DNA of 64,000 nt from positions 168,364,535 to 168,428,534 of the forward strand of contig OZ038380.1 in NCBI GenBank assembly GCA_964036045.1, given 5' to 3'. The stretch is from Eutreptiella sp. 'Long Island Sound 2002' (taxonomy: Eukaryota; Euglenozoa; Euglenophyceae; Eutreptiales; Eutreptiaceae). Below are positions 1 through 41,318 of this stretch, piece after piece. The translations under genes were made by a program, and so were the position numbers. Positions within the stretch are counted from its first letter, which is position 1, and each line of letters begins with the position of its first letter. The notes beneath the pieces are model-generated. The model did no database searches and was not told where the DNA came from. It worked only from the letters and a program-made list of their open reading frames with translations.

Positions 1-1150
1 GTTCAGCCCTACAATGAGGGGACCCCAGGCCTTTGTCGAAACAAATAGAATTGCTGCGCTCTGTTCACAACGGAGTGACGGTTTGTCACCCGCCTGCCCT
101 GCGATGTCTTGCGGTGCAACACTGTGTGAGGCAACCCTGCAAGGATTTACATGGGTCTGCACCCATGTAATAGCGCGTCTCTTCGTGAAGCGATGGTGCT
201 GTACAAGAGCCCTCCAGCATCCATCAAGGCCACTGTGGGTTACACGTGTGACCCCATGCAATGCATAGTCAGGAGGCCTGTACTTGGGCACAATGCTACG
301 TAGCACCTGCCCGTACCAGGTCCAGTGTGACAGAATGGGTGAAAGTCCCTTTCCAAAGTCGCGATCGCAAAGTGCCCTGCATTTGCCGCATAACCAGCAC
401 ACTGGGTCCTCACTGGTGCAGTTCCATCTTTTGATGCCTGCCATTGCCTGTTGTGCAACGACATCTGCAACCAGGAAAATATGGGGTTTTTCCATGTAAC
501 CCCCTTGTACCTCATACCTTGTGTTTAGGGCCTCTTGCACCTGCTCATCCATTTTGCTAACCCTTGTGAGCGATCGTAGCACAGCACGTTTTTCAGAGCC
601 GTGCAAAATGCACCAGCTACCAAGCGGGTTGCCCGATCCGAGCACTCCAAGCATAAAATGCTCGAAGTGCCGCTTGTGTAGTTGTGTGCCATCCACACAT
701 AGCCGTACCCATAGGTCCGGGTATAAATTTCCCTTATGGGCGGCCATCATGAGTCCCAGCTTCTCCCTCAAATTTGTACCGGCCCCCAGCAATGTGTGGT
801 CCCCGTCCATTGCATTGTAGTCCACTACTGGTGGTGCACTAAGATCCTCCTTCACACGTCTGATTTCATCAAGGGGGCATTTGATCCTGGACGTGGGGAT
901 GGAGTACTGGAGGGCCCGCCAGCTTTTGCCCTCTTTGCGGCAATCCCACAGGAGGGCCTCGGCATGCCACATGTGATTTTTGGGCATGGGCCCTTCCGTC
1001 GTTTTCAAAATGAGGGTGCCCACGTTTTCGCCAGCTTGCACTTGCCAGGTTGGGCCAAGAATGTCTGTGACTGCAGTTTGCAGTTCGGCCATCCGTTCCC
1101 ATCTCTTAGTCCTTCCCAGCTGTTGGTACTCCTTGAACGGGGGCATGTTC
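1..1150 (-). CDS. Transposase-like exon (partial, runs off left edge)
   Basis: An open minus-strand frame extends from 1150 to the window edge with no stop (about 382 codons counted from an internal ATG at 1146). It follows a pyrimidine-rich acceptor (a T10 run, then CCCCCCTCAAG, ending at 1151). Counting from that ATG, a predicted beta-strand carries Asp152 (motif LCVDGT), a second hydrophobic strand carries Asp228 (FLVADVV), and a Cys cluster CxxCxxC lies at 250-256 (CWLCGKC). Two strand-borne Asp residues followed by a Cys-knuckle insertion is the layout of RNase H-fold DDE transposases; the third acidic residue would lie outside the window. The acceptor is phase 2 and matches a phase-2 donor (GG|GTAGCA at 1528/1527) at the end of the upstream dioxygenase exon, so it is probably the 3' part of that gene. 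An independent gene starting at 1146 is the alternative. The family call is an inference from layout; I do not recognise a specific transposase family. Confidence 0.55.
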
Positions 1151-1244
1151 CTTGAGGGGGGGAAAAAAAAACCTAGGGAAAGACAACAGGGGGGGGGGGG
1201 TGCATGGACACAACAAGCTTCACATGTACACGCAACATGCAACA

Positions 1245-1450
1245 CGTACGTCTGCGCGTACGAGCCGCGTACGCGTTCCATTCTTAATGCGTACGTTCCA
1301 CAACACCGAATCGTACGTGTCATGAACCCAACGCGTACGCGCCAGAAAAGCGAATCGTACGCGTCATGACCCCAGCGCGTACGCGCCAACACAGCAACGC
1401 GTACGATGCAACACCATAACGCGTACGCACCACGTACGCCAGCGCGTACG
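1245..1450. repeat. Intronic 22-bp phased CGTACG array, copy A
   Basis: Exact CGTACG hexamers start at 1245, 1257, 1268, 1290, 1312, 1334, 1356, 1378, 1400, 1422, 1433 and 1445. Seven consecutive steps are exactly 22 bp and the ends step by 11 or 12 bp. The 16 bases between sites are poorly conserved, though ACG or AAT often precedes the core. The array lies in the proposed intron 1151-1527. Confidence 0.9.
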
Positions 1451-1527
1451 CGCCCCTGCCACAACGCGCGCGTGTTGACGCACACTTCACCCATCAATCA
1501 TTAATGCACAATGCATGCACATGCTAC

Positions 1528-2114
1528 CCGGCACACAGCCGGAACCCAAGACTGCGCAGCAGCACGAGGTCCTCCCAAGACACCTTGCCAAGACCGACCT
1601 GGGTAAAAAACACCAGTGCGTAGCGCTCACCACGCCACGGGGCTGGCATGTGCAAAGCACCACTGCAAAAAACAACCCCATTCCGGGCATCCAATGCCAC
1701 CCCATCCTCATCCACTCTGTCTTGGCCCTCTGGCCCTGCAACACATGCCATTGTGTAGGGACGGGTTCCCTTTGTGGGGAACACGAGCCCCGCCTCTTCC
1801 ACACAAAACTCCCCACCTGAAAAATCACCAACAGTCACAATGGCACTCAAGGGCAAGTGGTCCTGGTGCTTGTGCCCTGGCATAGTGCTTGAAGGGGAAA
1901 TACCATGGTTCACTTGGACGGCAGTCCTAGTGAACCACGATGGCAACCGTGCGCGCCCGTAGGCGTTGATGGCCTGGCACACCTTCGGGAAGTTGCGTGT
2001 TGCAACCGCCACCCGGACATTGCCACGCTGCACCACCCCAAACATCGCGGAACGCAATCGTACTCCCCACCTGTCCTTGGACTGCCACACCCCCCCATCC
2101 AACCCCTCCAACAA
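1528..2114 (-). CDS. TET/JBP-like 2OG-Fe(II) dioxygenase exon
   Basis: Minus-strand open frame with the double-stranded beta-helix signature of TET/JBP-type 2-oxoglutarate Fe(II) dioxygenases. It has an HxD iron ligand (KHQD, His at 1868-1866 and Asp at 1862-1860), a following SAIVTVGDFSGGEF strand, a distal His in ALHMPAPW (His codon 1652-1650) and the 2OG-binding Arg in GERYALVFFT (Arg codon 1625-1623). All four expected active-site residues are present, so catalysis looks intact. Enzymes of this family oxidise 5-methylcytosine or thymine in DNA; the substrate here is unknown. The frame has no convincing ATG at its 5' end, so it is probably an internal exon. The 5' boundary is unsure: a pyrimidine tract at about 2112-2138 points to an acceptor between 2060 and 2112. 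Its 3' end gives a phase-2 GTAGCA donor at 1527. A separate gene starting at an internal ATG is the alternative. Confidence 0.7.
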
Positions 2115-2156
2115 AAAACATATGTGAGAGGAGGGGAGAGCAGCAGCCCCTGGGAG

Positions 2157-3395
2157 TCAACTCCCACCACCCTTGCCACCGCCGGGCTGCTCCGCCGGCT
2201 TGCCGGACTGTAGACTCCGGACATTGTACTTGTCCGTCAATGCCATAAGGGCTGTGAGAGTCTTCTGTCCCTGTGATGTCTCCCTGCCTCTTGCATCCTG
2301 CAGTGAATCCCTCAGGTCCTCAATGGATGTGGTGGCTTGGACAAGGCCATCCCTGATTTCCATTGCTGCCAGCTGCAAAAAATTCTTCTGATCTTCCACA
2401 TCTTTCCCCCCCTCCCCAGGGCCAGGGCTGGATGGGCCTTTCTTGCTTGCCCTCACAGAGGCATCCTGCAGCTTCACTCTTAACTCCCTAATCTCACTGT
2501 CTTTTTCTCTTCGCTCTTCCTCCCACTTTACACGCTCTTCCCTCAGCATGTCCTCTGCAGCTTTCTGTGCCGCCGCACTCTCCTTGCGCACCTTCTCAAG
2601 TTCCACAATTCGCGCCTTTAGCTGCGCCTGTGTGTCTTTGAGGTGCTCACGCAGTGGTCCTGAGGGGGAGATGGGGGGCTGTTGGGGGACTACGGGCCCC
2701 CCCCTGGCACCAAGCTTTGGTTTCTTGGCGCGGGACATACGAGAACCGTGCCGCGATTGGTCGGTGTCGTAGCCCTCCTCATCCCCCCCTGTCCCCGTGT
2801 CCCTCTTCCCCCCAACCTTCCCCGCAAGGAGAAGCTTCCACCTCTCCATTGCACCCTCCACCTCTGCAACAACAGCAGCGTCGGTGATTGGGAGGTAACC
2901 CGCCACCCCTGACCACTGAGCACGCTTGGCCTGCTTGAGCTGCCCTCCATGCACACGCCATGTCTGCACGTAACTGTGGCTGTCACCTTTGATCTGGTAC
3001 AAAGTCCCCCCAATAAAAACTGCTGCAGGGTCCCTGCCAACGGCATGGCCCTTCATCCACATGGGAAAGCGGACCATCATGGGCTCAAGCCATGAGACCG
3101 CACCACTGTCTTCCTTTACCTTTGCCTGCAACGTGACCTGATCAAAAAAACTATATTTGGCAACATCCCCAACATGGACGTTGTCCACCACATCCTCCTT
3201 ACTCACCTGCACCAACTGCCCTGCAATTGTCCCTATCGACTCAGGGTCCGGGGCAACCAAGGGAGCGCGTGGGGGGCTCTGAAGAAGCGCCTTCGGCTGC
3301 AGCGCCTTCCGGCCCGAATCCGGAGGCGTCGGGTGCACTTGTGCTTCAGAGGGCCAAGGGCGCCGCTCCTTGTACTTGAAGGGGGTGACGTTCAA
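2157..3395 (-). CDS. Coiled-coil exon of the dioxygenase gene
   Basis: About 412 codons, entered through a clean acceptor (CTTTCCTCTTGCAG|TTG at 3396/3395) in phase 0, matching the phase-0 GAG|GTATGC donor at 3701/3700. The first half is a mixed alpha/beta region of unknown fold (around FFDQVTLQAKVKEDSG and MWMKGHAVG). A basic, low-complexity linker follows (SRAKKPKLGARGG, possibly a nuclear localisation signal). Next comes a long charged heptad-like helix encoded at about 2430-2650 (KARIVELEKVRKES, EERVKWEEERREKD), predicted to be a coiled coil for oligomerisation. The frame ends in a Gly-rich stretch and TGA at 2157-2159. The downstream dioxygenase exon is in the same frame after this TGA, so either the protein ends here or the last few codons and the TGA lie in an intron of a length divisible by three. 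Confidence 0.6.
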   Translation of the reverse strand: MNVTPFKYKERRPWPSEAQVHPTPPDSGRKALQPKALLQSPPRAPLVAPDPESIGTIAGQLVQVSKEDVVDNVHVGDVAKYSFFDQVTLQAKVKEDSGAVSWLEPMMVRFPMWMKGHAVGRDPAAVFIGGTLYQIKGDSHSYVQTWRVHGGQLKQAKRAQWSGVAGYLPITDAAVVAEVEGAMERWKLLLAGKVGGKRDTGTGGDEEGYDTDQSRHGSRMSRAKKPKLGARGGPVVPQQPPISPSGPLREHLKDTQAQLKARIVELEKVRKESAAAQKAAEDMLREERVKWEEERREKDSEIRELRVKLQDASVRASKKGPSSPGPGEGGKDVEDQKNFLQLAAMEIRDGLVQATTSIEDLRDSLQDARGRETSQGQKTLTALMALTDKYNVRSLQSGKPAEQPGGGKGGGS

Positions 3396-3700
3396 CTGCA
3401 AGAGGAAAGCGTAGAGACACGTTAATTATGAAACAACACGTGTGGGCAGCGCACGCAACACGTACGAGTTGGTGCATTAGCGCGTACGATCTACTGGGGC
3501 AACACGTACGTGCTGGTATGTCAATGCGTACGAGGCGCTCGGGCAACGCGTACGTGTTGCTACCCCAACACGTACGATCTGTGTGGCCTACGCGTACGTG
3601 TTGGTAGGTCAACACGTACGCACCAAAAACGTAACGCGTACGAGGCACTTGCGCAACACGCACGCGGTGCGTACGTGCCACATGCGCAAGAAATGCATAC
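3396..3700 (-). other. Intron filled by a 22-bp array
   Basis: A 305-nt intron defined by donor GAG|GTATGC and acceptor TTGCAG|TTG; joining the flanking exons keeps the frame (phase 0). Most of it is the CGTACG array described separately. Confidence 0.75.
3439..3675. repeat. Intronic 22-bp phased CGTACG array, copy B
   Basis: Hexamers start at 3461, 3483, 3505, 3527, 3549, 3571, 3593, 3615 and 3637 (all CGTACG), then 3659 (CGCACG) and 3670 (CGTACG). Variant sites lie on the same grid at 3439 (CGTGTG) and 3450 (CGCACG). That is nine consecutive exact 22-bp steps plus 11-bp half steps at both ends. Confidence 0.93.
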
Positions 3701-5755
3701 CTCCCCATAATTATCACAATGGTCCATGCACCCACATGAGTAGGCCATTCCGCCCGTCGCCGTCGGCCGCTGCACCACCCAGTTCTGCTCCACCGCCTCC
3801 GCAACACTAGCGGGCGCCACATGCAGGGCATGCCCCATGGCTGCCCACTCCATCCATTCCGGCCCATCCTCGTCCCGCCTCAACACGTAACCACACGTGG
3901 CAAACGTGAACACCAACGAACCTTTCTCAACCGTAAACCGTGTCCCGCCGTCAAAACTTGCCTTTGGGAGGTACCAACGGTGAAACCGGGCCAAGGGACA
4001 TGGTGGCTCCTCGGGGCCGGGTGGGCACTTAAAAAAGAAAGTTGCACCATGCACACCATGGCCCAAAATCACAACGTCACCACAATAGGGGATAGCTTGC
4101 CGTCGCCGAACAAGCAACGGAGCCGAAAAATGGGTAAAAGATTCCCAAAGGATAGGAACACCTTTGGCATCTTTCAGAAATTGAACCATAGGAGGAAGGG
4201 CATACAATTGGCGAGCAAGATGCACCTTTGACATGGTGGCAGCATGCTCCAAAGGGACAAACGGGATGAACAAAGTGTAGCGCCCCTTTTCCCCACCACC
4301 TGCCCCGCGATGAAAGGTGCAACCTTTTAAAAGAAGGATGTCACCCAATTCCATGGAACACACATCCCAACGATTGGACTCATGTTGCCCAACCTGATGC
4401 GAACCCACTCCGACTTGCAAAGCACACTCGGGAGGAACATTGTCCAAGGGAATAAAGACTTGGATGCAATCCTTCATCCAAGGTGGACCCATAAGGTTGT
4501 GATCCGAATGGACCAACTGATACCCATCCCATGGGGCACATGGGGTACAATGTAGCAATTTCAGATCCACGGGTTTCAACGCACTCCACTCAACACCCTC
4601 AATGCGCGTCACCGCACCCAACACTTGCGTGCGCAACTCCTCGGGCAACCATTTCGACGACCGTTTTGTTTGCTTCCGAATCACGTTGGCACTTGCATAA
4701 GTGTCATCTTCCAACGTAATCACCTCCCAATCACGGGGGGCAATGTCAACGTTTAAAATGGCTTCGCCAATAACAGCATCAAACGAATGCCGTTCAATGA
4801 AATAACCGGCAAGTGCAAACCCATGCACATGTTCGACGGGTGCGTCCGGAAGCAATTGGTTTGAGGGCAAGGGCATATCACAGAAAAATGGTGTGGGTGC
4901 ACCGTAACCCAATGCAAAAGACTCCGCTGCGGTTGCATACACATACGGCGTTGAGCAATCGGGGTGGTAATTTACCGAAAGGGGTGGGGGCACGCATTGA
5001 ATGGGGCCATGCTCATTCCATTCATCCGATGCACAACCCATGTACCGGACAAAGGAGTCCGTGCGACAAATGCTATCCACGTCACTGGCAACGGGATTGG
5101 GGAAAAGGGTACCATCATTGAGCACCGCATATTTGTGGGTAAGGGTCTTGGCAACTCTCTTACGCAAGGACGCATTCATAGTTGTGAAAAGTGCGTCACG
5201 CTCACCAACACTCAAACTAATGGAAACCATGAGCAAACGCTCACCCACAAACTCATACAAAGCAGCAAGGAGAAGGGTGTGGGGCATTGCATCGGCATTG
5301 GGCCATGCAAGAACGGAACGACTATCAACAACAGCAATAACACCTAGTGCTTGCGCATTCACATCCAAAAGCAAAAGATCTTGCCATGAACTTGGCAATT
5401 CCGGGAGACCCTTAATGTCTTCCTCACCCAACGCTAAACGAACAACAACAACACCATGAACACCGTGAGCAAGATCTCCTGCCTCACGAGTGTCCGTGAA
5501 CCAACGCTCCACCGATTCATCCTCCTCCAACAACCCAACCTCCAAGGCCCGCCTCACAATCTCGGCGGGCCTATTGCCGTCGGCCACCACCTCATCCTCC
5601 TCCTCCACCTCCTCCTCCAAATCCACGTCTCCCTCCACCACGTCTTGACCCACACTTGTCCTTGGCGCCCTCCTTGCCACGGCCCCGGCGTCGGTGGGAG
5701 GCACGGAGACCTTCCTCGCCACCTTCTTCTTCGCCGGTTTTTTCTTGACGGGCAT
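3701..5755 (-). CDS. 2OG-Fe(II) dioxygenase exon with basic/acidic N-terminus
   Basis: The 5' coding exon of the left gene, 685 codons from ATG at 5755 (start MPVKKKPAKKK) to the donor GAG|GTATGC. I prefer this ATG because an in-frame TAA lies upstream across the proposed 5' intron, and the sequence just upstream is an acceptor (TTTTCCTTTTCTTAG at 5772). Domains: Lys-rich N-terminus (possible nuclear signal), an acidic stretch around residue 50 (DLEEEVEEEDEVV), a long unrecognised region, then a 2OG-Fe(II) dioxygenase core with His416-Ser-Asp418 (LVHSDHN), a VFIPLDNVP strand, distal His482 (CTFHRGAGG) and 2OG-binding Arg492 (GRYTLFIPF). This resembles the phytanoyl-CoA-dioxygenase-like branch more than TET/JBP. 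About 190 residues with no recognised domain follow. Substrate unknown. Read without splicing, the frame would run on into the repeat array to a stop near 3560. Confidence 0.75.
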
Positions 5756-5771
5756 GTCGTGCAAAAAAGCA

Positions 5772-6061
5772 CTAAGAAAAGGAAAACAGACATGAAGCAA
5801 AGTAAAAGTTTTTCTTTGTCACGTCAAAAGCAGCACGATTCAACCGCCAGTACTGCAGACAGCGTACGGGCACCATAGGCAGCACGCACGCGTTGCGATC
5901 TGAGTGCGTACGCGCCAAAATACCAACGCGTACGCGCCAAAATACCAGCGCGCACGCACTCAGAACGCAACGTGTACGCACTCAGATCGCAACGCGTACG
6001 CGCTGGTTCGCTGGTTCATGCGCGTTACAAAATCAGTGCGTACGCTAACGCGTACGCATAC
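5772..6061 (-). other. Probable 5'-UTR intron carrying array C
   Basis: The acceptor CTTTTCTTAG at 5772 lies 16 nt upstream of the ATG. A donor-like CAT|GTATGC sits at 6062/6061, the same GTATGC start as the downstream intron. Splicing places a TAA in frame upstream of the ATG, consistent with a non-coding first exon. Confidence 0.5.
5863..6056. repeat. Intronic 22-bp phased CGTACG array, copy C
   Basis: Sites at 5863 (CGTACG), 5885 (CGCACG), 5907, 5929 (CGTACG), 5951 (CGCACG), 5973 (TGTACG), 5995 (CGTACG), a degenerate 6017 (CATGCG), 6039 and 6051 (CGTACG). All but the last step are exactly 22 bp. Confidence 0.9.
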
Positions 6062-6094
6062 ATGTGAACAAAATGGGGCAGATCTTAGCAGTTA

Positions 6095-6380
6095 CACACC
6101 CACCCACCCACCCACCCGGGCGCCACGAATGTTTTTGGGCACATTCCGGCTTCAGGCCAATTTGGTCCAAACCGGGCGCCACCCACCCGGGCGCCACCCA
6201 CCCACCCACCCACCCACCCGGGCGCCACGAATGTTTTTGGGCACATTCCGGCTTCAGCCCAATTTGGTCCGAACAGCCGGAATGCCAAAAACGAATCTTT
6301 TTGGGCACATTCGGGCTTCAGCCCATTTTGGTCCGAACAACCGGAATGCCAAAAACTAATGTTTTTGGGCACATTCGGGC
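6095..6380. repeat. Tandem repeat of a GAATGTTTTTGGGCACATTC unit
   Basis: Three to four diverged units, each with a CACC-rich stretch, GGGCGCCACGAATG, TTTTTGGGCACATTC and GGCTTCAGCCCAATTTGGTCC. GGAATGCCAAAAAC next to TTTTTGGGCACATTC can form a hairpin. Non-coding. Confidence 0.8.
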
Positions 6381-7730
6381 CCCGCCCTCCCATGCCCTAC
6401 CCCGCCCCTCCCATGCCCTGCCCCACCCTCCCATGCCCTGCCCCGCCCCACCCATGCCCTGCCCCGCCCCACCCATGCCCTGCCCCGCCCCACCCTCCCT
6501 TGCCCTGCCCCGCCCCACCCTTGCCCTGCCCCGCCCCACCCTTGCCCTGCCCCGCCCCTCCCATGCCCTGCCCCGCCCCACCCTTGCCCTGCCCCGCCCC
6601 ACCCTTGCCCTGCCCCGCCCCACCCATGCCCTGCCCCGCCCCACCCTCCCTTGCCCTGCCCCACCCTTGCCCTGCCCCGCCCCACCCTTGCCCTGCCCCG
6701 CCCCACCCATGCCCTGCCCCGCCCCACCCATGCCCTGCCCCGCCCCACCCATGCCCTGCCCTGCCCCACACCCATGCCCTGCCCCGCCCCACCCTCCCTT
6801 GCCCTGCCCCACCCTTGCCCTGCCCCGCCCCACCCATGCCCTGCCCCGCCCCACCCTTGCCCTGCCCCGCCCTCCCATGCCCTGCCCCGCCCCACCCATG
6901 CCCTGCCCCGCCCCTCCCATGCCCTGCCCCGCCCCACCCTTGCCCTGCCCCGCCCCACCCTTGCCCTGCCCCGCCCCACCCTTGCCCTGCCCCGCCCCTC
7001 CCATGCCCTGCCCCGCCCCACCCATGCCTTGCCCCGCCCCACCCATGCCCTGCCCCGCCCCTCCCATGCCCAGCCCCGCCCCACCCTTGCCTTGCCCCGC
7101 CCCACCCTCCCTTGCCCCGCCCCGCCCCTCCCTTGCCCTGCCCCGCCCCACCCTTGCCCCCCCCCGCCCCACCCTTGCCCTGCCCCGCCCCACCCTCCCT
7201 TGCCCTGCCCCGCCCCACCCTCCCTTGCCCTGCCCCGCCCCACCCTCCCTTGCCCTGCCCCGCCCCACCCTCCCATGCCCTGCCCTGCCCCACCCTTGCC
7301 CCGCCCCGCCCCACCCTTGCCCTGCCCCGCCCCACCCTCCCTTGCCCTGCCCCGCCCCTCCCTTGCCCTGCCCCGCCCCTCCCATGCCCTGCCCCGCCCC
7401 ACCCTCCCATGCCCTGCCCCGCCCCTCCCATGCCCTGCCCCGCCCCACCCTCCCATGCCCTGCCTCGCCCCACCCTTGCCCTGCCCCGCCCCACCCTCCC
7501 ATGCCCCGCCCCGCCCCACCCTTGCCCTGCCCCGCCCCACCCTCCCATGCCCTGCCTCGCCCCACCCTTGCCCTGCCCCGCCCCACCCTCCCATGCCCCG
7601 CCCCGCCCCACCCTTGCCCTACCCCGCCCCACCCTCCCATGCCCCGCCCCACCCTTGCCCTGCCCCGCCCTCCCATGCCCTGCCCTGCCCCGCCCTCCCA
7701 TGCCCTGCCCCGCCCTCCGGCGTCCTGCAC
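6380..7730. repeat. 1.35-kb C-rich minisatellite (about 21-bp unit)
   Basis: About 60 imperfect units of CCCATGCCCTGCCCCGCCCCA or its CCCTTG variant. Because the unit is close to 21 bp, several frames stay open on both strands and give long Pro/Ala/Cys- or Gly/Arg-rich pseudo-ORFs; I regard these as artefacts. Confidence 0.95.
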
Positions 7731-16374: not shown

Positions 16375-17034
16375 CTAGCACAAGAGCCAAGCAATGAGCA
16401 GCCCTGCGGTGCGCGGCTCTGCTGCAAACAAGAAACCATTGCCCCTCCTCAGCAGAGGTGAATGGGGAGGGGCGTTGAGGGGGGAGAGTGTTTTGTTGCT
16501 GATGCTTTGCAGCCATATTCACACTGAAATTCCTTGGGTGAAGGAGAATTTCAACCCCCCACCCTCGCCCAAGGTTTGAGTCCACTCATCCTCAAACATT
16601 TTGGCCATCCTGGAGGGTGGAGTGGGGGCTGGGGGCTGGTGGGGGGTAGGCTTTGGGCCTGGTCAGGCCCCATGATCACACCCTCCAGACATGGGATCAT
16701 GGCCCCCCCTTTATACAACCACATCCCCTGCAATTGAACTTACCCCACACACCTGTTGGGTCACACTCCCCACGAACATCACGAAATTATGCCCCTTACA
16801 AAGGGTCACCACCCCACACGAAGAACCTCACTCGCCCCCACCCCAAAAAAGCACCCGCCCCCCCCCCCCACATGGGGCAATAAATCCCCTGATGGGGGTT
16901 GGGGGCGATCAGCAGCCCGTTCCTCCTTGAGAGCCTGCATTCAGGACCGCTGGTCCCAGTCGCAACGTGGGGGGAAGGCAGCATGCACTGCGGGCGCCTT
17001 GACATCTGGAAGGTGCTGGGTTACTGGTATTTAC

Positions 17035-17335
17035 TTGCAGTTACTGGGCAGTTACTGGCGGTTACGAGCAGTTACGCGCAGCTACGGGCGGTTACTGGCA
17101 GTTACTGGTAGTTACGGGCGGTTACTGGCAGTTACGGGCAGTTACTGGCAGGTACTGGCAGTTGCGGTCAATTACGGACAGTTGCCGACAGATACTAGCA
17201 GTTACTGGCAGATACTGGCGGTGACTGGCGGTTACAGACAGGTACAAATGATTTCGGGCAGGTGCGGTCGGTTACTGGCAGTTGTGGGTTGTTACAGGCA
17301 GTTACTGGCAGTTACGGGCGGTTACCCTCCCCTGC
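17035..17335. repeat. GGTTAC/CAGTTACTGG minisatellite
   Basis: About 300 bp of roughly 10-bp units (CAGTTACTGG, CGGTTACGGG and variants) in the intron 16375-18579. The same core (GGCGGTTAC or its complement) is scattered singly in other introns. Confidence 0.85.
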
Positions 17336-22189: not shown

Positions 22190-23077
22190 CTGCGGAGCGG
22201 CGCGGGGGATGGCGGTGCCCCTGCACAGGGGTATGCAGTCTCCAGTCTCCAGTCGGTCTGCCTCCTGCGTGTTCTCGACTTCCGGGTCTCATCCCCCCAG
22301 ACCGCGAATTGTGCCACGGCGACACCGTGACGAACGCCGGGAAGCCCCAGGGGTCCGCCGCGGAGGGAGGAGGGTGGTGCCAATTCGCTGATTGGAATGC
22401 GGAGCCTGTGCGCACCCGGGCACACGACCACTGTCACTGCCCCCCCCCGTACCTTGGGACCCTGGCCCCGCCGCCCCCTAAGCCCGGCAAGGGGGTTTGA
22501 GGGGGGCCAACAAGTGCACCTTTTGTGAAGGGAAGAGGCCCACAAGGGCAAATGTGGTGAACAGACGTGCCCCTAGCGTCCGGCAGAGCGACTGGTGCTC
22601 GGTAGCTAACCGCCCCGTATCAACGGCCACTGAGTAATATCCGCCCCCCGCACCACCAGAACTCAGTAGGAACGTGCCGCGTCCGGCGTTTGGCTCAGAA
22701 GGACCCTGCTCCATCCGATCATGTCTGAGCTGGCGGACGCTAATGGCAGGTCTGGTATCAAAAAAAAAAAGAGCAAAACTATGGTATACAGGGGTATACA
22801 TTACGTAAGAAAGTCCTGTATGTATACACCACTACATTTCCTCTGTTCTGGGATAATTACCCAAATTGCGTGCCGCTGGTGCCCCGAGCGCCGGAGGGAG
22901 AAGACCGCCCATGCCCGCGCCCTCGACAACTTCAGCCACAATGCCAAATGTTTTCCTTTTCTGAATCGATCGCCTTGCCATCAAGGCCCTCCGTCCAGCA
23001 ATAAATGCTGTCCGGTCACCGCTGTCCGGTCACTCTGCACTCCGCCACCGGTCCGCCCAGAAACGCGCTGCACATAC

Positions 23078-23603
23078 CCAAAGATGCCAAAGTAGACGAT
23101 GGTGAAGAGGATCAGTTTGGTCAACGGGCTGTCCTCGCTGCACGAGCTGCAGTCGGAGCCGGCGTACCCCTCCTGGCACACGCCGCACAGGAACCCCATG
23201 TGCCCCTCGTCGCACTCCCCCTCCGTGCGGTTGGCCAGGCAGGCCCCCTCCGGCATCCAGTCCGGGCACTGCAGGAACGCGCTCGTGTTGGGGTGCGCGC
23301 GCCAGAAGTTCGTCTGCGTCTTGATGAGGTCCAGGGCGGTGCCGTTGCAGACCGCGCCCGGCATGCACTCGCGGCACTTGGTCTCGCCGGGGATGTAGAA
23401 CTCCTTGTGGCCGCACGGCTGCGACTCGATGGACTCCGACCAGACGTCCGCCCCCAGAATCTCGAGGCTGAAGTGCAGGTGGTACTGCGTGCCGTACCGG
23501 GCCTTGAAGCCGATGCCCTCGAACACAAACTGGCCGTCCTTGAACACGGACTCGTAGGGCTTGACGTGGTCGTTGGCCAACAGCGGCAGCGGCGGCGGTT
23601 CCA
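23078..23603 (-). CDS. Giant receptor gene: Cys-rich ephrin-receptor-like exon plus first helix
   Basis: Acceptor AATCCGTGCACAG|TGG (phase 1) to donor TTTGG|GTATGT (phase 2). It encodes a beta-rich stretch (FVFEGIGFKARYGTQYHLHF), then a Cys module: CGHKEFYIPGETKCRECMPG, AVCNG, a NFWRAHPNTSAFLQC segment, a CDEGHMGFLCGVCQEGYAG stretch and CSSC. It ends with a first helix (LTKLILFTIVYFGIFG). The CxxC, AVCNG, NFWR and GFLCGVC pattern is the diagnostic part of the ephrin-receptor-like/GCC2-GCC3 receptors of algae and oomycetes. Confidence 0.88.
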
Positions 23604-25685
23604 CTGTGCACGGATTGTGGACGGGCAGGTGACCCACGCCCCCCCGCATCAGTGCCGGGAGTCCTCTCATAAGCGACGTTATGAGCACTTCTAAGCCCCT
23701 CAGCCCCTTCGAGCCCCACCCAGAAAGGCCCTACTTCACCCTCGGGCAAGGGGATGCTTTGGGCCCAGACCGGCCCCTGGCCCTGAACCGGCCCCCTCCT
23801 CTCCCACCACGCTTCGACGCGCTGTTTGGGGAGGTGGTGCATGGGGTGCCCTAGTGGCAGCACACGGGGCTGGGGCTTGGGGCGATGACCTGCATTGCTT
23901 GAAAAGCAAATACCCGGCTAAAAGCTCCCCATCGTTTGGATTGATGATACCGACGGTTTCACAGGCATTGGCAAGCAGCCCACCATGCTGCTGCTGTGTG
24001 GTAATCAGGCCGGGAAATCGCGGGCGCCGAGGCGGCTTTGCCATGCAACCAACATAGAGCGTTTGAATGTGTTTCCAGCAGCGTACCGGGATGAGCAATC
24101 TGTTTGATTTGCCGGGAGATGGCGAGCTATTCGACATCTCCCCGGGGGACCAACCAAATTCAACAGTAACATGGCCTCATGCGGCGGCTAGCCCCTCGAG
24201 TATGGCATGTTTCGTGACAATGCGCAAGACTTCGGCCCCTGCTGTTGTGCCTTGACGTCAGTGTTGTGAAGTGGTGCTTCTATGAACTCACCCTTTACAA
24301 GCATTTTGGCATCCCGGGATACGGTTTGGGGAGCAGAGTATTGTGAATTTCTTGAAGTGGAACTGTGTGGCTTGTGACAGGGATGGTGCGATATGGGGGA
24401 ATGACTGACGTTTCTGAGAAAACAGAACCACACTGTCGCAGGCGTTCTCAAAATCCCAGCGTCAGTAGCCAAACAATTCAATTCTTAGGCACTCCAGAGC
24501 AACAAGAACCGGTACTACAAGTGTTGCAACAAAGAGTGACATCCCTGCAAACACCATCAAACATCCAAAAGTGCTTCCTGGGGGAAACCACGTCTTTTTG
24601 AACAACGTTCTGCTGCAAACTCACACCTTCATTGAATACCTTGTACAGGATCCATCCGAGACCCCCCGATTCCACCAGAAGGAGGTGGACAGTCATGAAG
24701 TGGAGTGTTGGGGGCTCGGCATGGAGGTTGCATGTGTCATGCAACCTCCATCGACCTCATCCGCCCAGCCTGAGGTGAACTCTTGTCCAGGGGAGTCGAG
24801 ACCCCATATTCAGGCAGTCGCACACCGCAGGGGACCAACGCATGCCCTCGGACACCGACACTCTGGACCGACGATTGTTGCGATTGTCGCGCCGTTTCGC
24901 GTTGACTCCCGCATCTTCCACAGAGCAGACGCCGTGGGAATACGAGAAGTATTGCCCTTGGAAACGGTGCGGCATGTCGTATCGTTTTTGTGCGTGAATC
25001 ATCTCCGGGCCCAGCGTTCCCGAGCCATTGGGCACGTGTCCCAAAGAGTCGCCGGAGAACCCCAAGCCAACCTCCAGACCGACGGACGGACCCCTGCAGC
25101 CCCACACCCGCCCGCCCGCCCCTGCCTTGTGGCCTGATCTGAACCGTCCCTCAAACCGGACGGTCATTCGGTTGGGGGTGAGCCCACGCCTCCGCACAGC
25201 CTTGGCCTACAGCACCGGGCGGAAAAAGTGTGGAAGGGGGCGGCAAAACCCTCGGGGACCCCAGGGGCAGGCGGGCTTTCAAATTCGGGGGGGGAGGGGT
25301 CGATAGAGCCCCCTGGCTAGCCCCCCCCCCCAAAAGGGGCTCTATTGACAGCACCCCCATTATCCTACCGAGACCTCGGAGGTGACCTAGACCCAAATTT
25401 TGGCAAAAAAATGAAAATGGGATTCTTGGAATCAGCGCGTCGAGGGGGTTCAGAAAAGTCATCATTTGCCATACATTTGGTGGAAAAAAAAATGAACATT
25501 TTCAATGCTCAAAAAAATTTTCGACGCCTTCGGCGCCAGAGTTCATAATGACTGATGAATGGTCCTGTCAATTGAGCCCTTTTCCCAGACCCCCCCCCCC
25601 CAGTTTTGGGGGGCTCTATTGACCCCCCCCCCCCCCCCCAGTTGAAAGCCCTGCTGCCCCAGCACCCGTGGGCCCGGCGGGCGAC

Positions 25686-30582: not shown

Positions 30583-30861
30583 CTGCGGAGGGGGCGTGGG
30601 AGTGCACCCCCGGTGCCGCACGGCATCGATGTCTGTCCCGCGTCGCGGCCCCCCTCTTGTGCGGGCCCCGGCCATGCCACCGACACTCGGCGACGGGCCG
30701 AGCCTGCGAACGCTGTCGGTTTCCCCATTTGCACTGTTCGCCTACGACGGACGGGATTACCGCCTCCGTCGGTCTATACCCGGCCCTTCCGCACTGACTT
30801 GGGGCCTGGAGGACCTGGAGGGAGGGGGGGGGGCATGACGCCTGCAGTGGATTACTGTCTG

Positions 30862-31600
30862 CAGGCGGCGGCGCCCATCGGCCTCTCGCCACTCACCCCT
30901 GCCCTTTCCTCGAACCCCCTCCCTCCGCAGGCGGCGGCGCCCATCGGCCTCTCGCCACTCACCCCTGCCCTTTCCTCGAACCCTCTCCCTCCGCAGGCGG
31001 CGGCGCCTATCGGCCTCTCGCCACTCACCCCTGCCCTTTCCTCGAACCCCCTCCCTCCGCAGGCGGCGGCGCCCATCGGCCTCTCGCCACTCACCCCTGC
31101 CCTTTCCTCAAACCCCCTCCCTCCGCAGGCGGCGGCGCCCATCGGCCTCTCGCCACTCACCCCTGCCCTTTCCTCGAACCCCCTCCCTCCGCAGGCGGCG
31201 GCCCCCATCGGCCTCTCGCCACTCACCCCTGCCCTTTCCTCAAACCCCCTCCCTCCGCAGGCGGCGGCGCCCGTCGGCCTCTCGCCACTCACCCCTGCCC
31301 TTTCCTCGAACCCCCTCCCTCCGCAGGCGGCGGCGCCCATCGGCCTCTCGCCACTCACCCCTGCCCTTTCCTCAAACCCCCTCCCTCCGCAGGCGGCGGC
31401 GCCCATCAGCCTCTCGCCACTCACCCCTGCCCTTTCCTCAAACCTCCTCCCTCCGCAGGCGGCGGCGCCCATCGGCCTCTCGCCACTCACCCCTGCCCTT
31501 TCCTCAAACCCCCTCCCTCCGCAGGCGGCGGCGCCCATCGGCCTCTCGCCACTCACCCCTGCCCTTTCCTCAAACCCCCTCCCTCCGCAGGCGGCAGCGC
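30862..31600. repeat. 66-bp minisatellite, about 11 units
   Basis: Unit on the plus strand: GGCGGCGCCCATCGGCCTC, then TCGCCACTCACCCCTGCCC, a TTTCCTC stretch and CCCCCTCCCTCCGCAG. Units are nearly identical. It lies in the intron 30583-32931. On the gene's own strand every unit contains GGGGTGAGTGG, a donor-like sequence. Confidence 0.95.
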
Positions 31601-32931
31601 CCATCAGCCCCTCACCCCCTCGTGCCCTCCCTCTCTCGGTCTGGCCTACCCTAACCTCCCCTACTCGCCCTTCCTTTGCCTTGGGAGGGCGTGCCCAATG
31701 AGCCCCCGCACTGTCCCTGTTGCACTGCTTTTGTGTCGGGTCCACACGGAGGAGGGCATCGGCCCTCGCCGTTGGGCAGGTGCGTCCAGGCAGACACCCC
31801 CATACCGGCGGGGGGGGCAGCCCTACCCAACTGCGAGGGGGGGGGGGGGTCAGCCGCCGGCCGGCCAGGGGGGGAAGGAGACGGGAGGGCGAGGGTTGGG
31901 GGTGGGGGTGGGGGCCACCGGACTGGCTGTGTGATCCACCAACATGACACCTGCGGGGACAGTGTTCAAAGACGTGTTGCTCTCCTCTGCGAGGCACTGT
32001 TCACGTCACTTGATGACATTTTTGAAGTGCCATGCAATGTACTGTACACCGCAACTTGCCCAAACCAAAAACAGACTTTGGTGCCCCAGGCCTCCAGGCA
32101 GAGGCACAGGCCACTTCAACAACCTCATGACGTGGTTGCCTCAGGCTGAAATCTGACATCAAGGTGATGCAGATTTACCAGAAAAAAAATCATTCCGGCG
32201 CCTTCGGCACCGACACCGAATGAACGCTGGTCCGGGGTCCCGTTGGCGTTTCTGTAGTGCACACTGCGGTCTTACCTCTCTTGAAAACAAAAAGCCGACC
32301 TCCAACCGCCGTCGGTTTCCCCCCGACCGTCGGTTGCCCCTCTGCCGCCGTCGGTTACTCCAACTGCCTCCAACCAACCGCGTTCGGTTGCAACTCAAGT
32401 ACCGTCCAATCGAGTGCCTAACGGGTGAGCCGGCCCTATACCCGCCATCGGCTGCCCTCGACTCCCACCGGCGAATCTGATCTGCAACCGCGATCGGGGG
32501 TGATCCGGCTCACCGATCGCGGGTCCGTCGCATTCCATGCAGCCGCCGCCGTGAGGGGCCCAGGGGGGAATGTTTGCCCGGCGCACGCCCGGCGCGCTCT
32601 AGCCCCAAGTCTATCCCCCCGAGGGAAGATCCCCAAGTAGACCGCACTGGACCGCAAACCTTCCCTGCAAAGCACGTTGCATAAGCCGAAATATGAGAAC
32701 TCAACAACACAAAATGTCACTCCCACCACTTCCAACCACCCCCTTTGCCATCATCATAAACCGGGTGCAAAGGATGGGCCACATTCTCAGACACGGCGAG
32801 AAGGTACTCCAAATTGGTTGGTGAGGGGGGGCAAAAACAGGCACGGGTGGGGAATGGTCAAAAAAAGATGCCCGGCGCGCGCCCGGCGCACGAATACTCC
32901 CCCCTTGACCGACCCATAACCCCTTGAACAC

Positions 32932-36512: not shown

Positions 36513-38560
36513 GTGGCGGCTGACCATCAGAGAGTGCATGCCATAGTAAAAAAAAAATATAAAAAAAAGGGTGAGTGTCCTTATGGCACCCCCTGGCGGT
36601 GGCTGCCACCGCCTGCGGGTGAGCGCAGATACTCCACCGACTGCCTTGGGTAGGGCCCCCAGCGCCCCCCGGTCAGGACATGGTCATGTCGGCACGTGTA
36701 CATGGGCATGGGCATCGCGTGTGGAATCTTCACGGCGGAGGTCTCGGACTGGGTCTGTGGTGGTTTAGGGGGCCCCGCGTCCAGCGCGGAGCAGCCTGCG
36801 GCCCGGGCCACCGCCGGACTGGGTCTGTTGAGCTACGGGCCCGGCGGGCGTGGGACATTCCCCCATCCCCATCCCACCCCATGCCCCTCCGGCAGCTCAA
36901 CCCCCTCCCATGGGGTGTCCGCGGCGCCGGCACATGGCGTGCCGGGGATCGGCTCCTGGCAGCGTCAGGCAACCACAAAGGCCAAGAACAGCAGGGCATT
37001 TCTTCACTCTTTACGACGCTGGTGGTCGGTTAGAGTCCAAGTCACCATGAAACTGACTTTGACTCCTCATACTCTGATTCATCGCTATCCACATCCACAT
37101 GCCCAAAAGCAAACTGAGTGACTGCCCTGCCACGAGAAGAGCAAGCAGATAAATGTGGTAATTCACACATAGTAGGTGAGGACTCACGGCGGTGTGCAAC
37201 TGCTGCGGGGTGATTACTGTAAGGTATATGCGGTAACCGGGTACTGTTAACCTTGATTAAAATTGAACCCACAATTTCATGAAAAAACATTTTATGCAGA
37301 TGGTTGTTAGAGCATTATTAGGTACAGCTGTCTATGGGGCGGCTGCGGTGCCTTGACCATCCTAGGCCGCCTTAGCACCATGACCATTGGGCCATGTGCA
37401 ATAATGCCAATAGTTCACCGGAAGCGCATTCTGTGAGTAAATGAAATTGCATAAATCTCAACGGAGAACGCTGAATCGTGAGCGCAATAATGATCATTAA
37501 GAAAATGGGCGTCTTTCCATGTATAAAAGTCTATTTTTCAGGAAGCTGCACATGGCACGGAGCAAAGCGCAATGAAATGAACGGACAGCTTCGGCCATTT
37601 TCCACGGCGCACCGTCTTCCACAATGCCGGTTGGCGCACCAGCAAACCTGCGGTGGGTTTACCGGGTGCGGTAAACGCACTTTGGTTGTGTTTCACGGAG
37701 GCGCGGGCCCCGGGCGGCGTGTGGTGGCAGGGAGGCATGTATGGCCGGGGGGCGGACGAGGGGCAGTGGGGGGGGAGGGGGGGGGACTGCCACTTTGTGG
37801 GTGAGAGGGGCATGTCTGTCCCACCGCTCACGACTGCAGCGGTCCGCCCCCCCCCCCCCCCCGCGCGGCGCCCCCTCCCCCGCCGGCGCTGACGGGCCCC
37901 GCATGTCGGGCGGTCCCGGACCGGGAGGACGACCCCCATGCCCCCAGGCAAGCCACGGCCTACCGTCACCGGGGCCTCAAAAAGGGCAGGCGTGGACCCG
38001 CCACTTGGCTCCAGCCGCGCCTGCCTTCACGCGGCCTTCACACGGCCTTCATCGTTGTGCGTTCGACTTTGCCATTTGATTGTCCCAAGGCAATTGTGCG
38101 TCCCTGTACCCTCCCGGATGGGGGCGAGAGACAAGGCTTGATGGTTCTGGGCATTCCCGTTACTGAGGGGGGGGGGGGGGGCGGAGTGGCAGCCCCCTGA
38201 CCCAACCCCCCCCACCCACTTTTTACCAAAATCAAAATCTTTTTACAATTTTTTTTTTCCAAAATCAAATTTTACCAAATTGCAATTTTGGGAAAAAGAT
38301 TTTGGTACAAACATCAGAAAATGTTTGCTCGGGACGACAATGAAATGTATCAAAGGGGCCCGAACTTGGAGGTCGATTTTAGGTACACAAACTTTTTCTT
38401 GGCTTCTGACCCCCCCCCCCCAGCCCCCGGTATAGGCCACGGTCGCCACTCAGCCGTGGCCTGGCAGAGGGGATGCCCCGGGCAGAGCGGGGCCCGGCAG
38501 GAACTCCGCGGCCGCTGGGGCGGGGGGCCTGCGGCACAGAAGGGCCCTCCCCGGACGCAC

Positions 38561-39106
38561 CTCGTCGAACACCATGGCGCCCGCGGGCTGCGGCCCGTGC
38601 AGCGCCGTGACGTCGCGCGCGCGCGTGATGGCGACGTTGGGCAGCTTGCAGTACGGCTCCAGGAAGCCCTCGGCGCAGGCGTCGCAGTTGGTGCCGGTCC
38701 AGTGCCCCCGCGAGCTGTCCAGGTAGCACTCGCAGGTGCCGTCCAGGCGGTCGCACGCGCCGTGGCCGTTGCAGGCGCAGGGCCAGTCGCAGCGCAGGCC
38801 CCAGTACCCCTCGAGGCAGCGGTTGCAGAGGTCGCCGCCCCACTGCCCCGCGGCGTCGCGCTGGCACACGCAGCCCCCGGTGGAGTTGCAGACGGCGTGG
38901 GCCGGGGGGTCCGCCCCTGGGAAGCAGTCCTGGGGCTGGCACGACACGTTGCAGTCGGCGCGGTAGTACCCGGGGCTGCACTCGCAGGCGCCGTCCCCGG
39001 CGTTGGAGTCCCGGCAGGTGCCGTGGCCGAAGCAGCGGGTGCCCGGCGGGCCCGGGCACTCGATGTCGCAGTGCGGCCCGGCAAACCCGGCGGTGCAGAT
39101 GCAGGT
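38561..39106 (-). CDS. Giant receptor gene: second EGF-like exon
   Basis: Acceptor GTGCCGCTCCCACAG|ACC (phase 0) to donor GACGAG|GTGCGT (phase 0), 182 codons. Cys-rich EGF/laminin-type repeats continue from the large exon: CICTAGFAGPHC, CFGHGTCRDSNAG, CECSPGYYRADC, CNSTGGCVCQRDAAGQWGG, CNGHGACDRLDGTCECY, then a Cys-spaced end (NCDACAEGFLEPYC). A non-Cys tail leads toward the propeller-like exon. Confidence 0.85.
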
Positions 39107-39342
39107 CTGTGGGAGCGGCACGATGCGCGGCGGCGGTGGTGGTGCAGGGCGGCGGGACGGGGGAAATCGGCACGCGCGACGAATCGGACCCCATGGGGCG
39201 GGGGGGGGGGAGGGTTACTGGCGCCCCGCGCGCGCCCCGCGCATCTGTTGAGGGTGCATTGGTCTTGCGCCTGATGCCGCCCAGGACAAACTCTCGCCTC
39301 CAAATGACCTTAAGACGGGTAACCCCCCCCCCCCCCTGCGCT

Positions 39343-39775: not shown

Positions 39776-41318
39776 ATGGTCACTTTCGTATGGGGGGGAA
39801 AGGGGGGTTGTTTGGTGGTATGTCATTTGATTTACCCCGCGGCATTCATTATACCCCCGGGGCAGGGAAGCATTAGAATGGCCGTACACCGTAGGACGAG
39901 GGGGGGGTACAACAAGGAACGTCGGCCATCGTTTCCTTAACCTGTGCCCCGGGTACTCCCCTGCCGGTGCATGCGGCGTGCTGGTTGTGCCGGATCAATG
40001 GCCACACGGAGAGCGGTCCTTTGCGTGTGCCTCGGACACAGTGAGTGACAGTGGCTCAGGGGGTGATGGTGGCGCAGTTCGTCAGAGATGAGTATTGTGA
40101 GACCCCTGACAAATGCTGGTCTGAAGCCGTACCCCTTGGCGGCTGTACAGCGCATGTCCCTCATGCTCCAGTGGCACTGATACGACATGCTGCCGGACAC
40201 CTGATCGCCCAAAGGCTTCACCCAACGACCGCTGAAGGCAGGGGTTTGGACTCTAAATGCGCCGCCTCCCCGTTTCCGGCCGCAGCACTTGTGGCCAGGC
40301 CACAACCAAAGCCCAGACCGAAGGGCCCCGGTCCCTTGCAACGCAGCACCGCTTCATGTCTTCAGTCCGCTCAGCAGAGCAACCCGCGCATTCTGACGTG
40401 GCGTCTAGACCAGGGCCTCTCGGTGTTTCTTGTGTGCCATTCTCCGGAGGGCTACATCAAGGACCCCCTGGCATTCGACCCACTCCGAGGGGTAGATTGG
40501 GGGGTGGGGGGGCACGTTGAATGGGGCCCAGGGTGTCGTTACACTGGGAACACTTGATCCTGAGTCCGGCGGCAGGACACACTGCTATCACCAAATCCCA
40601 CACAAACCAGACTTCATTCGCCTCTGCCGGTTGGACACAGCAGCAGTTGCAGTGGCCTTCAACTCCGCTTGGATGGCGGGTAACACGGTGCATTTAATGG
40701 GCAATGCTGTTGCAAGGTTCAGGTTGCGAGACCCATGATAAATGGAAGAGGCAATGGTGTGGCTGAGGGGTGGACGGAACACCCGAATCAAAGTCCGCCA
40801 CCTTACCAAGCCAGACCAACCGACGGGTTGGTTCCAGTGTGGACCTGACGGAGGTGGAGCACCAACCACGCTGCCTGTTTGCGTGGGTTCGGTGTGCCGG
40901 GCAGGTGCTGACTTACAATTGGTGCGGTTCAGGACCCCCCCAGTCCTTAAAACTGGCGTTCAATGGCGTCCTAATCACGAGACAGAATTGACGTTTGCAG
41001 AGTCTGGAAGGTGTGAATCACACTTCCCCCTGGTGAGTGAGACCCGGGTCCGGGCCCCTGCCCCAATTGTTGGGGGCTCTATTGAAGACCCCCCTACAAT
41101 TGAAGGTCCTGCTTCCCATACGGTGGCTTGTTTTCTCGGCATCAATCGTAGGCAGTAGAGGGCGCTTCTGAGCCAGTTGTGGGCCAACCACAGCGACGGC
41201 GGTTGTGGGCTTGAAGTGTTCTGGAGAAAACAGAAAAGAAAAACCCTGTCCACGAAAAAAACACCCTGACACAAAGGGCCCAAAATGCAGCAACCCGACC
41301 GCACCGCACCAGGCACAC

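Follow-up and report, generated by a model that had tools for sequence, protein, structure and literature searches.

The left edge of the stretch analysed here, a 64,000-nucleotide window of the genome of the euglenophyte Eutreptiella sp. 'Long Island Sound 2002' (contig OZ038380.1; G000:C3:168364535-168428534 in the 2.28-Gb assembly), is a cut-and-paste DNA transposon that occurs in dozens of copies in this genome. We consider it likely that the element is a transposon of the CMCT clade, PlavakaA-like in form, which carries, upstream of its transposase and on the same strand, two 2-oxoglutarate (2OG)/Fe(II) dioxygenase-like domains flanking a coiled coil, and that this equipment would serve to counter silencing.

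A mobile element with sharp ends and many copies

The whole element measures 7,542 bp (G000:C3:168363089-168370630), of which 1,446 bp lie to the left of the window (Table 1). Its limits were read by comparing the window copy, extended by the left neighbour of the window, with 19 fetched copies. From the copy alignment behind the row counts given further below, L044, which lacks the right end, was omitted; L047 was excluded from counts in exon 2 and at the TGA described below, where it is misaligned, and each site was counted only over rows not deleted there. The right homology limit occurred at position 6096 in 14/19 copies and inside 6094-6099 in 18/19, and the same right end was indicated by the deleted copy P0015 and by the host CACC repeat, which resumes at 6097. 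The left end was reached to 1 bp or less by 9/19 copies, the remainder being deleted or shortened. Five copies have the full length of 7,542 bp (the window copy, L031, L033, L038 and L039), and in four of these all four coding parts are open, the TGA-bearing spacer not being counted.

Both ends of the window copy carry TGTAACTGCTAAGATCTG in inverted orientation, giving the form TGT...ACA; the left 18-bp repeat of L031 has one change, and the final element base of L034 is C, not A. All copies that could be read at both ends (10/10) are flanked by 2-bp target duplications (TG, TT, AT, TC, AT, AT, TC, GT, GT and CA), the TG/TG of the window copy sitting inside a host GGTG-type repeat. In addition, near-identical copies (99% to the window copy) occur at unrelated sites, with unrelated flanks. 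A sequence-only reading of this DNA had linked its genes with transposons and proposed a search for terminal repeats around the locus; that search yielded the 18-bp inverted ends, and it is these ends, together with the duplications and the copies, that establish the unit as mobile.

With exon A of the element as the query, we found at least 66 matches in the 2.28-Gb genome, a lower bound because 65 of 1,559 candidates were scored; the final two rows resemble fragments of a single copy, and residues 1-685 are covered without a stop in 27 of these rows (table count). Protein searches returned at least 11 relatives of exon A (scoring only the 7,993 candidates with the most shared words), 18 of the transposase part and 21 of exon 3. 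These are 78-100% identical and many are partial, the exception being the transposase P0030, at 38%. Internal deletions link exon A (P0010) or exons 2/3 (P0052) to the transposase and, in P0015, the right end to exon A; the parts therefore travel together.

The coding parts lie co-oriented in one unit, from window position 5755 to 1 on the minus strand, so that the sequence-only reading was borne out in placing two dioxygenase-like cores, a coiled coil and a transposase together. The minus-strand open frames measure 752, 499 and 422 codons, the first two extending into arrays of 22-bp repeats, and none of 500 dinucleotide shuffles of positions 1-6096 gave an open frame of at least 422 codons (largest, 412).

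Table 1. Position and nature of the element and its parts within the window
Feature	Position	Strand	Evidence
DNA transposon, 7,542 bp, right four fifths in window	1..6096	-	shared homology limits of copies
DDE transposase, first 382/562 codons (D 693-691, D 465-463, C 399-397 and 390-388)	1..1146	-	motifs, alignment, selection
Intron 3 or intergenic region; 22-bp array, then pyrimidine tract and AG before the ATG	1151..1527	-	array search, alignment
Exon 3, TET/JBP-like core, ends LCAG and conserved TAG	1524..2062	-	motif, alignment, selection
Exon 3 core residues	H 1868-1866, D 1862-1860, H 1652-1650, R 1625-1623	-	motif
Spacer interrupted by in-frame TGA (2159-2157), perhaps removed as a short intron (2170 or 2167 to 2063)	2063..2170	-	alignment, intron enumeration
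Exon 2 (412 codons), encoding a coiled coil and a small unassigned N-terminal domain	2160..3395	-	frame analysis
Intron 1, 305 bp, GT-AG, phase 0, filled with 22-bp array	3396..3700	-	splice-site conservation
Exon A (685 codons counted from its ATG), encoding a PhyH-like core after a basic/acidic N-terminus	3701..5755	-	motif, selection
Exon A core residues	H 4510-4508, D 4504-4502, H 4312-4310, R 4282-4280	-	motif
Right subterminal array of 22-bp CpG-rich units, CGTACG core	5863..6056		repeat search
Right terminal inverted repeat, 18 bp, TGTAACTGCTAAGATCTG	6079..6096	-	18/18 bp match to left end of window copy

The element is embedded in a CACC-rich host repeat, and a 21-bp satellite of about 62 units (6379-7715) begins slightly beyond its right end. 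The right end of the L045 copy is adjoined, in L045:1-9858, by another, partial copy, which corresponds to window position 379 through to a point 665 bp left of the window. A 10-bp tandem repeat elsewhere in the window (GTTACTGGCA, 17020-17325) includes a stretch, 17189-17206, that matches the transposon end with 3 mismatches; no such match was seen in 100 window shuffles, and it is perhaps due to the simple repeat. A tRNA suspected by eye in the left tail of the element was not reported by ARAGORN.

A DDE transposase of PlavakaA-like form

The transposase of the window copy has 562 codons from the ATG at 1146, its H(4)H motif, glutamate and stop lying left of the window. The D...D...CxxC layout that the sequence-only reading had described in the left-edge exon is present, and the third acidic residue that it expected left of the window was found there as a glutamate; all three catalytic acids D, D and E are present in this copy. 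The catalytic and zinc-binding layout of P0016 is D184, D260, C282/C285, H484/H489 and E509, and the same order of D, D, C-x2-C, H-x4-H and E is kept in P0030 (catalytic acids D164, D241 and E492). A D-D-C(2)C-H(3-4)H-E layout occurred in 3/5,000 shuffles of P0016 and in 3/5,000 of P0030, a pattern that, as with the two HxD patterns considered below, was composed after the sequence had been seen. In P0017 the first catalytic D is replaced by H. Neither P0016 nor P0030 matched a Pfam family.

The C(2)C and H(3-4)H motifs between the second D and E are shared by the CMCT clade, which comprises EnSpm, Mirage, Chapaev, Transib and Plavaka, and within which PlavakaA is described as having 2-bp target duplications and TGT..ACA ends (PMC12730594, available text). 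As in PlavakaA, the element combines a C(2)C and H(4)H DDE transposase with 5'-TGT..ACA-3' termini and 2-bp duplications; it differs from Plavaka in lacking a match to the library models, in its two dioxygenase-like domains and in its intronic 22-bp arrays. In the same text, the Plavaka elements that bear TET are all PlavakaB, whereas the ends of our element match PlavakaA. The KDZ group (Kyakuja, Dileera, Zisupton) does not fit, since the element has 2-bp duplications where 7 bp are given for Kyakuja and 8 bp for Zisupton (PMC12730594). On the basis of the C(2)C/H(4)H layout, the 2-bp duplications and the TGT..ACA ends we therefore class it as CMCT and PlavakaA-like in form; placed by motifs and ends, it is probably a member of this clade with PlavakaA as its closest counterpart in form.

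The layout also resembles that of the Transib-derived RAG1, for which D600, D708, C727/C730, H937/H942 and E962 are given in the portion of PMC4914335 available. Comparing P0016 with RAG1, the distance from the second D to the first C is 22 vs 19 residues, from C to H 202 vs 210, and from the second H to E 20 vs 20, with H(4)H in both. The two differ in the distance between the first and second D (76 in P0016 vs 108), and a PDB search gave no sequence match. In P0033 the transposase runs into unrelated coding sequence, in which a resemblance to Helitron helicases, noted by eye, was not confirmed by Pfam.

Two dioxygenase-like domains upstream of the transposase

Exon A contains the HxD...H...R core that the sequence-only reading had located in 3701-5755, in the form HSD...H...R (H416, D418, H482 and R492). 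This loose motif is weak by itself, as it arose in 603/20,000 shuffles of the exon; among the rows covering the site, H416 is kept in 6/6 and D418 in 5/6. The top PDB entry for exon A, at an insignificant E value of 0.72, was FtmOx1 (chain 9les_A), the PhyH-like 2OG enzyme verruculogen synthase, whose Fe ligands are given as His129, Asp131 and His205 (PMC9235837, available text). In this local alignment H482 falls on position 205 of 9les_A, and the distal histidine would thus be in register with His205, provided that residues are numbered as counted along the chain. The two proteins differ in the distance from the first to the second histidine, which is 76 residues in FtmOx1 and 66 in exon A. 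Neither Pfam PhyH (PF05721) nor any solved PhyH-like structure was matched significantly by exon A.

The motif of exon 3 is H97-x-D99 (HQD)...GDFSGGEF...H169 (GALHMP)...R178 (GER), and it is rare, occurring in 6/20,000 shuffles. Counting the query row, to which P0034 is nearly identical, H97 is conserved in 15/15 rows, D/E99 in 14/15, H169 in 13/14 and R178 in 11/14. The sequence-only reading had placed a TET/JBP-like core in 1528-2114; the core motif is indeed there, and the boundary at 2114 found no support. Searching exon 3 against Pfam, including Tet_JBP (PF12851), returned no family at E values up to 10. As a positive control, gp2 of phage Nigel matched PF12851 at 4e-6, below the curated cut-off, and by eye shows a similar order of HxD, GG, H and R. 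A cyanophage gene annotated as 'phytanoyl' matched PF13759 and was used, with two neighbours, as a comparison only.

The names given to these domains, which the sequence-only reading had called 'phytanoyl-type' and 'TET/JBP-type', rest on motifs, because matches in Pfam, NCBIfam, PHROGs and PDB were insignificant and structure predictions failed. 'PhyH-like' and 'TET/JBP-like' are descriptions here, not memberships.

Several low-scoring matches were taken as chance: a 53BP1 Tudor match in exon A (E = 0.042), three PHROGs of no named function (E = 0.056-3.7) and one more for exon 3 (0.084), a NikC model match of P0016 (0.046) and a dihydropteroate synthase match of the transposase (E = 1.2). 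Scans of viral contigs and of genome_contigs gave no relatives, and tblastn against phages gave a single 35-bit match, judged to be chance, in one run and was empty in the other.

Purifying selection on both dioxygenase-like exons and the transposase

We compared the window copy with L045 and L048, the two most diverged copies, using uncorrected ratios of nonsynonymous to synonymous differences (pN/pS) and Fisher tests. The transposase (exon 4) had the lowest ratios, at 0.32 (L045; p = 6e-7) and 0.23 (L048; p = 4e-14), and exon A gave 0.46 and 0.53 (p = 1e-4 and 8e-4). For exon 3 the values were 0.42 and 0.29 (p = 0.09 and 0.001), and exon 2 showed no significant constraint (0.65 and 0.98; p = 0.08 and 1.0). 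These comparisons are not independent, because they share history; set against each other, L045 and L048 gave 0.59 for exon A, 1.03 for exon 2, 0.46 for exon 3 and 0.39 for exon 4. In the alignment exons 2 and 3 of L045 contain stops, as does exon 3 of L048 (one), and decay therefore dilutes the signal of selection. Among younger copies, pN/pS was 0.27-0.40 for exon A (L042, L043, L046 and L047), 0.23-0.43 for the transposase (L042, L043 and L047) and, with few changes, 0.17-0.66 for exon 3. Exon A, exon 3 and the transposase are under purifying selection in the deepest copy comparison, and the coiled coil is not. The dioxygenase parts therefore seem to be maintained by the element.

CpG-rich arrays and CpG-poor exons

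Arrays of 22-bp units with a CGTACG core occur at four places: near the right end, in intron 1, in intron 3 and near the left end of the element. The window holds 34 CGTACG sites; 28 of these are in the first 6,096 bp, all within the three array stretches. The ratio of observed to expected CpG reaches 1.5-1.63 in these stretches. Exons 2-4 have ratios of 0.52-0.55, exon A has 0.80, and the remainder of the window has 0.83. The exons are low in CpG and high in TpG/CpA, which would be consistent with methylation of the element in its host, and we infer that the arrays either escape CpG loss or are kept by selection. Each 22-bp unit spans two helix turns, which suggests that the units are bound by a protein.

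Probably at least two products

The sequence-only reading took the locus for one gene encoding one protein, with a phase-0 junction from 3701 to 3395 and a phase-2 junction from 1528 to 1150. The former stands, the splice pair 3700/3396 being conserved: the donor GTATGC and acceptor TTGCAG of intron 1 are identical in 19/19 aligned rows, window included. The latter is undercut by the stop codon of exon 3, which ends GGG TAG in 14/14 rows and in which the GT of the proposed donor at 1527 overlaps the TAG. The transposase ATG, kept in 13/13 rows, directly follows a pyrimidine tract, which varies in length, and an AG, which is conserved; P0030, for all its divergence, starts with Met at nearly the same place.

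Exons 2 and 3 are in the same frame, interrupted by a single TGA that is kept in 13/13 spanning rows, and this conservation excludes a private mutation of the window copy. In the database copy P0054 the TGA is replaced by Arg. In-phase introns that would remove the TGA are possible (Table 1); P0042 and P0047 enter the exon-3 frame only from 2063, and P0034, P0035, P0036 and P0050 are in frame from 2090. The 108-bp spacer has 2 differences to L045 and 3 to L048, a lower rate than in the introns (p = 0.03 and 0.05), although its slow change is uncertain, because against L046 4/108 sites differ, more than in intron 1 there.

Given the conserved TGA, TAG and transposase ATG, we read the locus as encoding at least two proteins, and the claim of a single protein thus went unconfirmed. 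Most likely, at least two would be made, perhaps by alternative splicing: a PhyH-like/coiled-coil protein and a separate transposase, with the TET/JBP-like domain most likely either joined to the former by splicing out of the TGA spacer or forming a product of its own. A single spliced gene, giving one protein of about 1,800-1,850 residues with PhyH-like, coiled-coil, TET/JBP-like and transposase parts in that order, appears unlikely. It would account for the invariant splice sites of intron 1, for exon 2 having no ATG close to its start, for the AG that, in the 14 rows extending this far, stands between a pyrimidine tract and the transposase ATG, and for the GT at the end of exon 3, and the TGA could be spliced out in phase or, as in P0054, read as Arg; yet the exon 3 stop and the transposase start are both conserved throughout, the latter nearly in place even in P0030, and GTAGCA is a poor splice donor.

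How the element may work, and what else it could be

Our preferred reading remains that of a CMCT transposon that counters its own silencing. By analogy, the element may help itself to escape silencing by the host: the transposase would excise and insert the element at the 18-bp repeats, as expected from DDE chemistry; the coiled-coil protein, the transposase or both would bind the 22-bp arrays, subterminal and intronic alike; and one or both dioxygenases would oxidise a modified base on the element, most likely 5-methylcytosine in CpG, and so relieve silencing, a scheme suggested by the motifs and the fungal precedent. According to the available text of PMC12730594, which builds on Iyer et al. 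2014, fungal CMCT transposons carry TET/JBP enzymes, likely as weapons against DNA-methylation silencing, a function that this source describes as not experimentally validated. The element shares with these transposons a TET/JBP-like 2OG dioxygenase beside the transposase and differs from them in its second, PhyH-like dioxygenase and its coiled coil; exon 3 was assigned to none of the TET/JBP types PU, AG and PE distinguished there. Among titles and abstract beginnings of the literature on transposons with TET/JBP, PhyH or 2OG dioxygenases, only PMC12730594 describes such elements, and we found no described transposon with two dioxygenases; in the available parts of PMC8226300, PMC11244446 and PMC12633428, Kyakuja/Zisupton or Plavaka elements are mentioned and the word dioxygenase is absent.

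Several results weigh against this reading. None of the coding parts has a significant Pfam match, and exons A and 3 and the transposase gave nothing significant in NCBIfam, PHROGs, PADLOC or PDB (exon 2 was searched in Pfam only). The putative Fe ligand D418 is N in P0011, one of the six covering rows; in the other exon-3 rows R178 is lost in 3/13 (one of them frameshifted), D99 is lost in 1/14 and replaced by E in one more. Selection on exon 3 is, against L045 by itself, not significant. Comparing the profile of exon 3 with that of 10 phage Tet_JBP proteins by hhalign gave an E value of 0.52, not significant, and unrelated pairs scored 0.25, 0.093 and 0.24 in the same test; as these scored equally well or better, the comparison is without power. 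The AlphaFold2 models of the transposase and of exon 3 were both unusable, with mean predicted local distance difference test scores of 33.7, which speaks neither for nor against an RNase H fold in the transposase, and 31.4.

These shortcomings could be taken to mean that the HxD...H...R patterns are due to chance and that the domains have another fold. The lack of a significant family match and the frequency of the exon A pattern in shuffled sequence would agree with this, which we nevertheless hold to be very improbable: the exon-3 pattern arose in no more than 6/20,000 shuffles, its H97 is invariant, both exons are under selection, and the distal histidine of exon A aligns with His205, an Fe ligand of FtmOx1, if chain count and residue number agree. 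It is somewhat easier to imagine, though still unlikely, that the domains are real enzymes with a substrate other than DNA, be it a protein (a histone or the transposase), RNA or a small metabolite. FtmOx1, the insignificant top structure match of exon A, acts on a small molecule; on the other side, the fungal transposon-borne relatives belong to the DNA-acting TET/JBP family (PMC12730594, available text), an argument by analogy only. That the locus might be an expanded family of multidomain host genes, as its long intact frames might suggest, is refuted by the inverted repeats and the 2-bp duplications in every copy read at both ends, and the sharp common ends, unrelated flanks and internal-deletion derivatives are equally at odds with it.

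A bolder version, which we think distinctly doubtful, would unite the two 2OG dioxygenases, the coiled coil and a RAG1-like transposase in one polypeptide or a splice-switched pair, and would make the CGTACG arrays the element's own modification-controlled switch. If so, one dioxygenase would make oxidised methylcytosine, the other would process it or a second mark, and the transposase would read the mark on the arrays before cutting. En/Spm has methylation-sensitive subterminal repeats that are bound by an element protein, and a single transcription unit with two products, and it has no dioxygenase; the element resembles it in its subterminal repeats and, probably, in making more than one product, and differs in its dioxygenase-like domains.

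The counter-silencing idea preferred here is directly testable copy by copy, as CpG-dense arrays stand beside CpG-poor exons in an element that is repeated and intact in several copies, with two different dioxygenase-like domains under selection.

Other features of the window

Further to the right, the window contains a 66-bp tandem repeat (30861-31613; 11.4 copies, 97% matches) and, at 22984-23730, a weak match to DUF7630 that falls short of the curated cut-off (E = 1.3e-5). The minus strand has an open frame of 3,434 codons (41145-51446) that encodes EGF and teneurin-type EGF domains (Pfam E values down to 8e-33), and an open frame with laminin/EGF-like domains at 38453-39214 is perhaps part of the same gene or of a sister gene.

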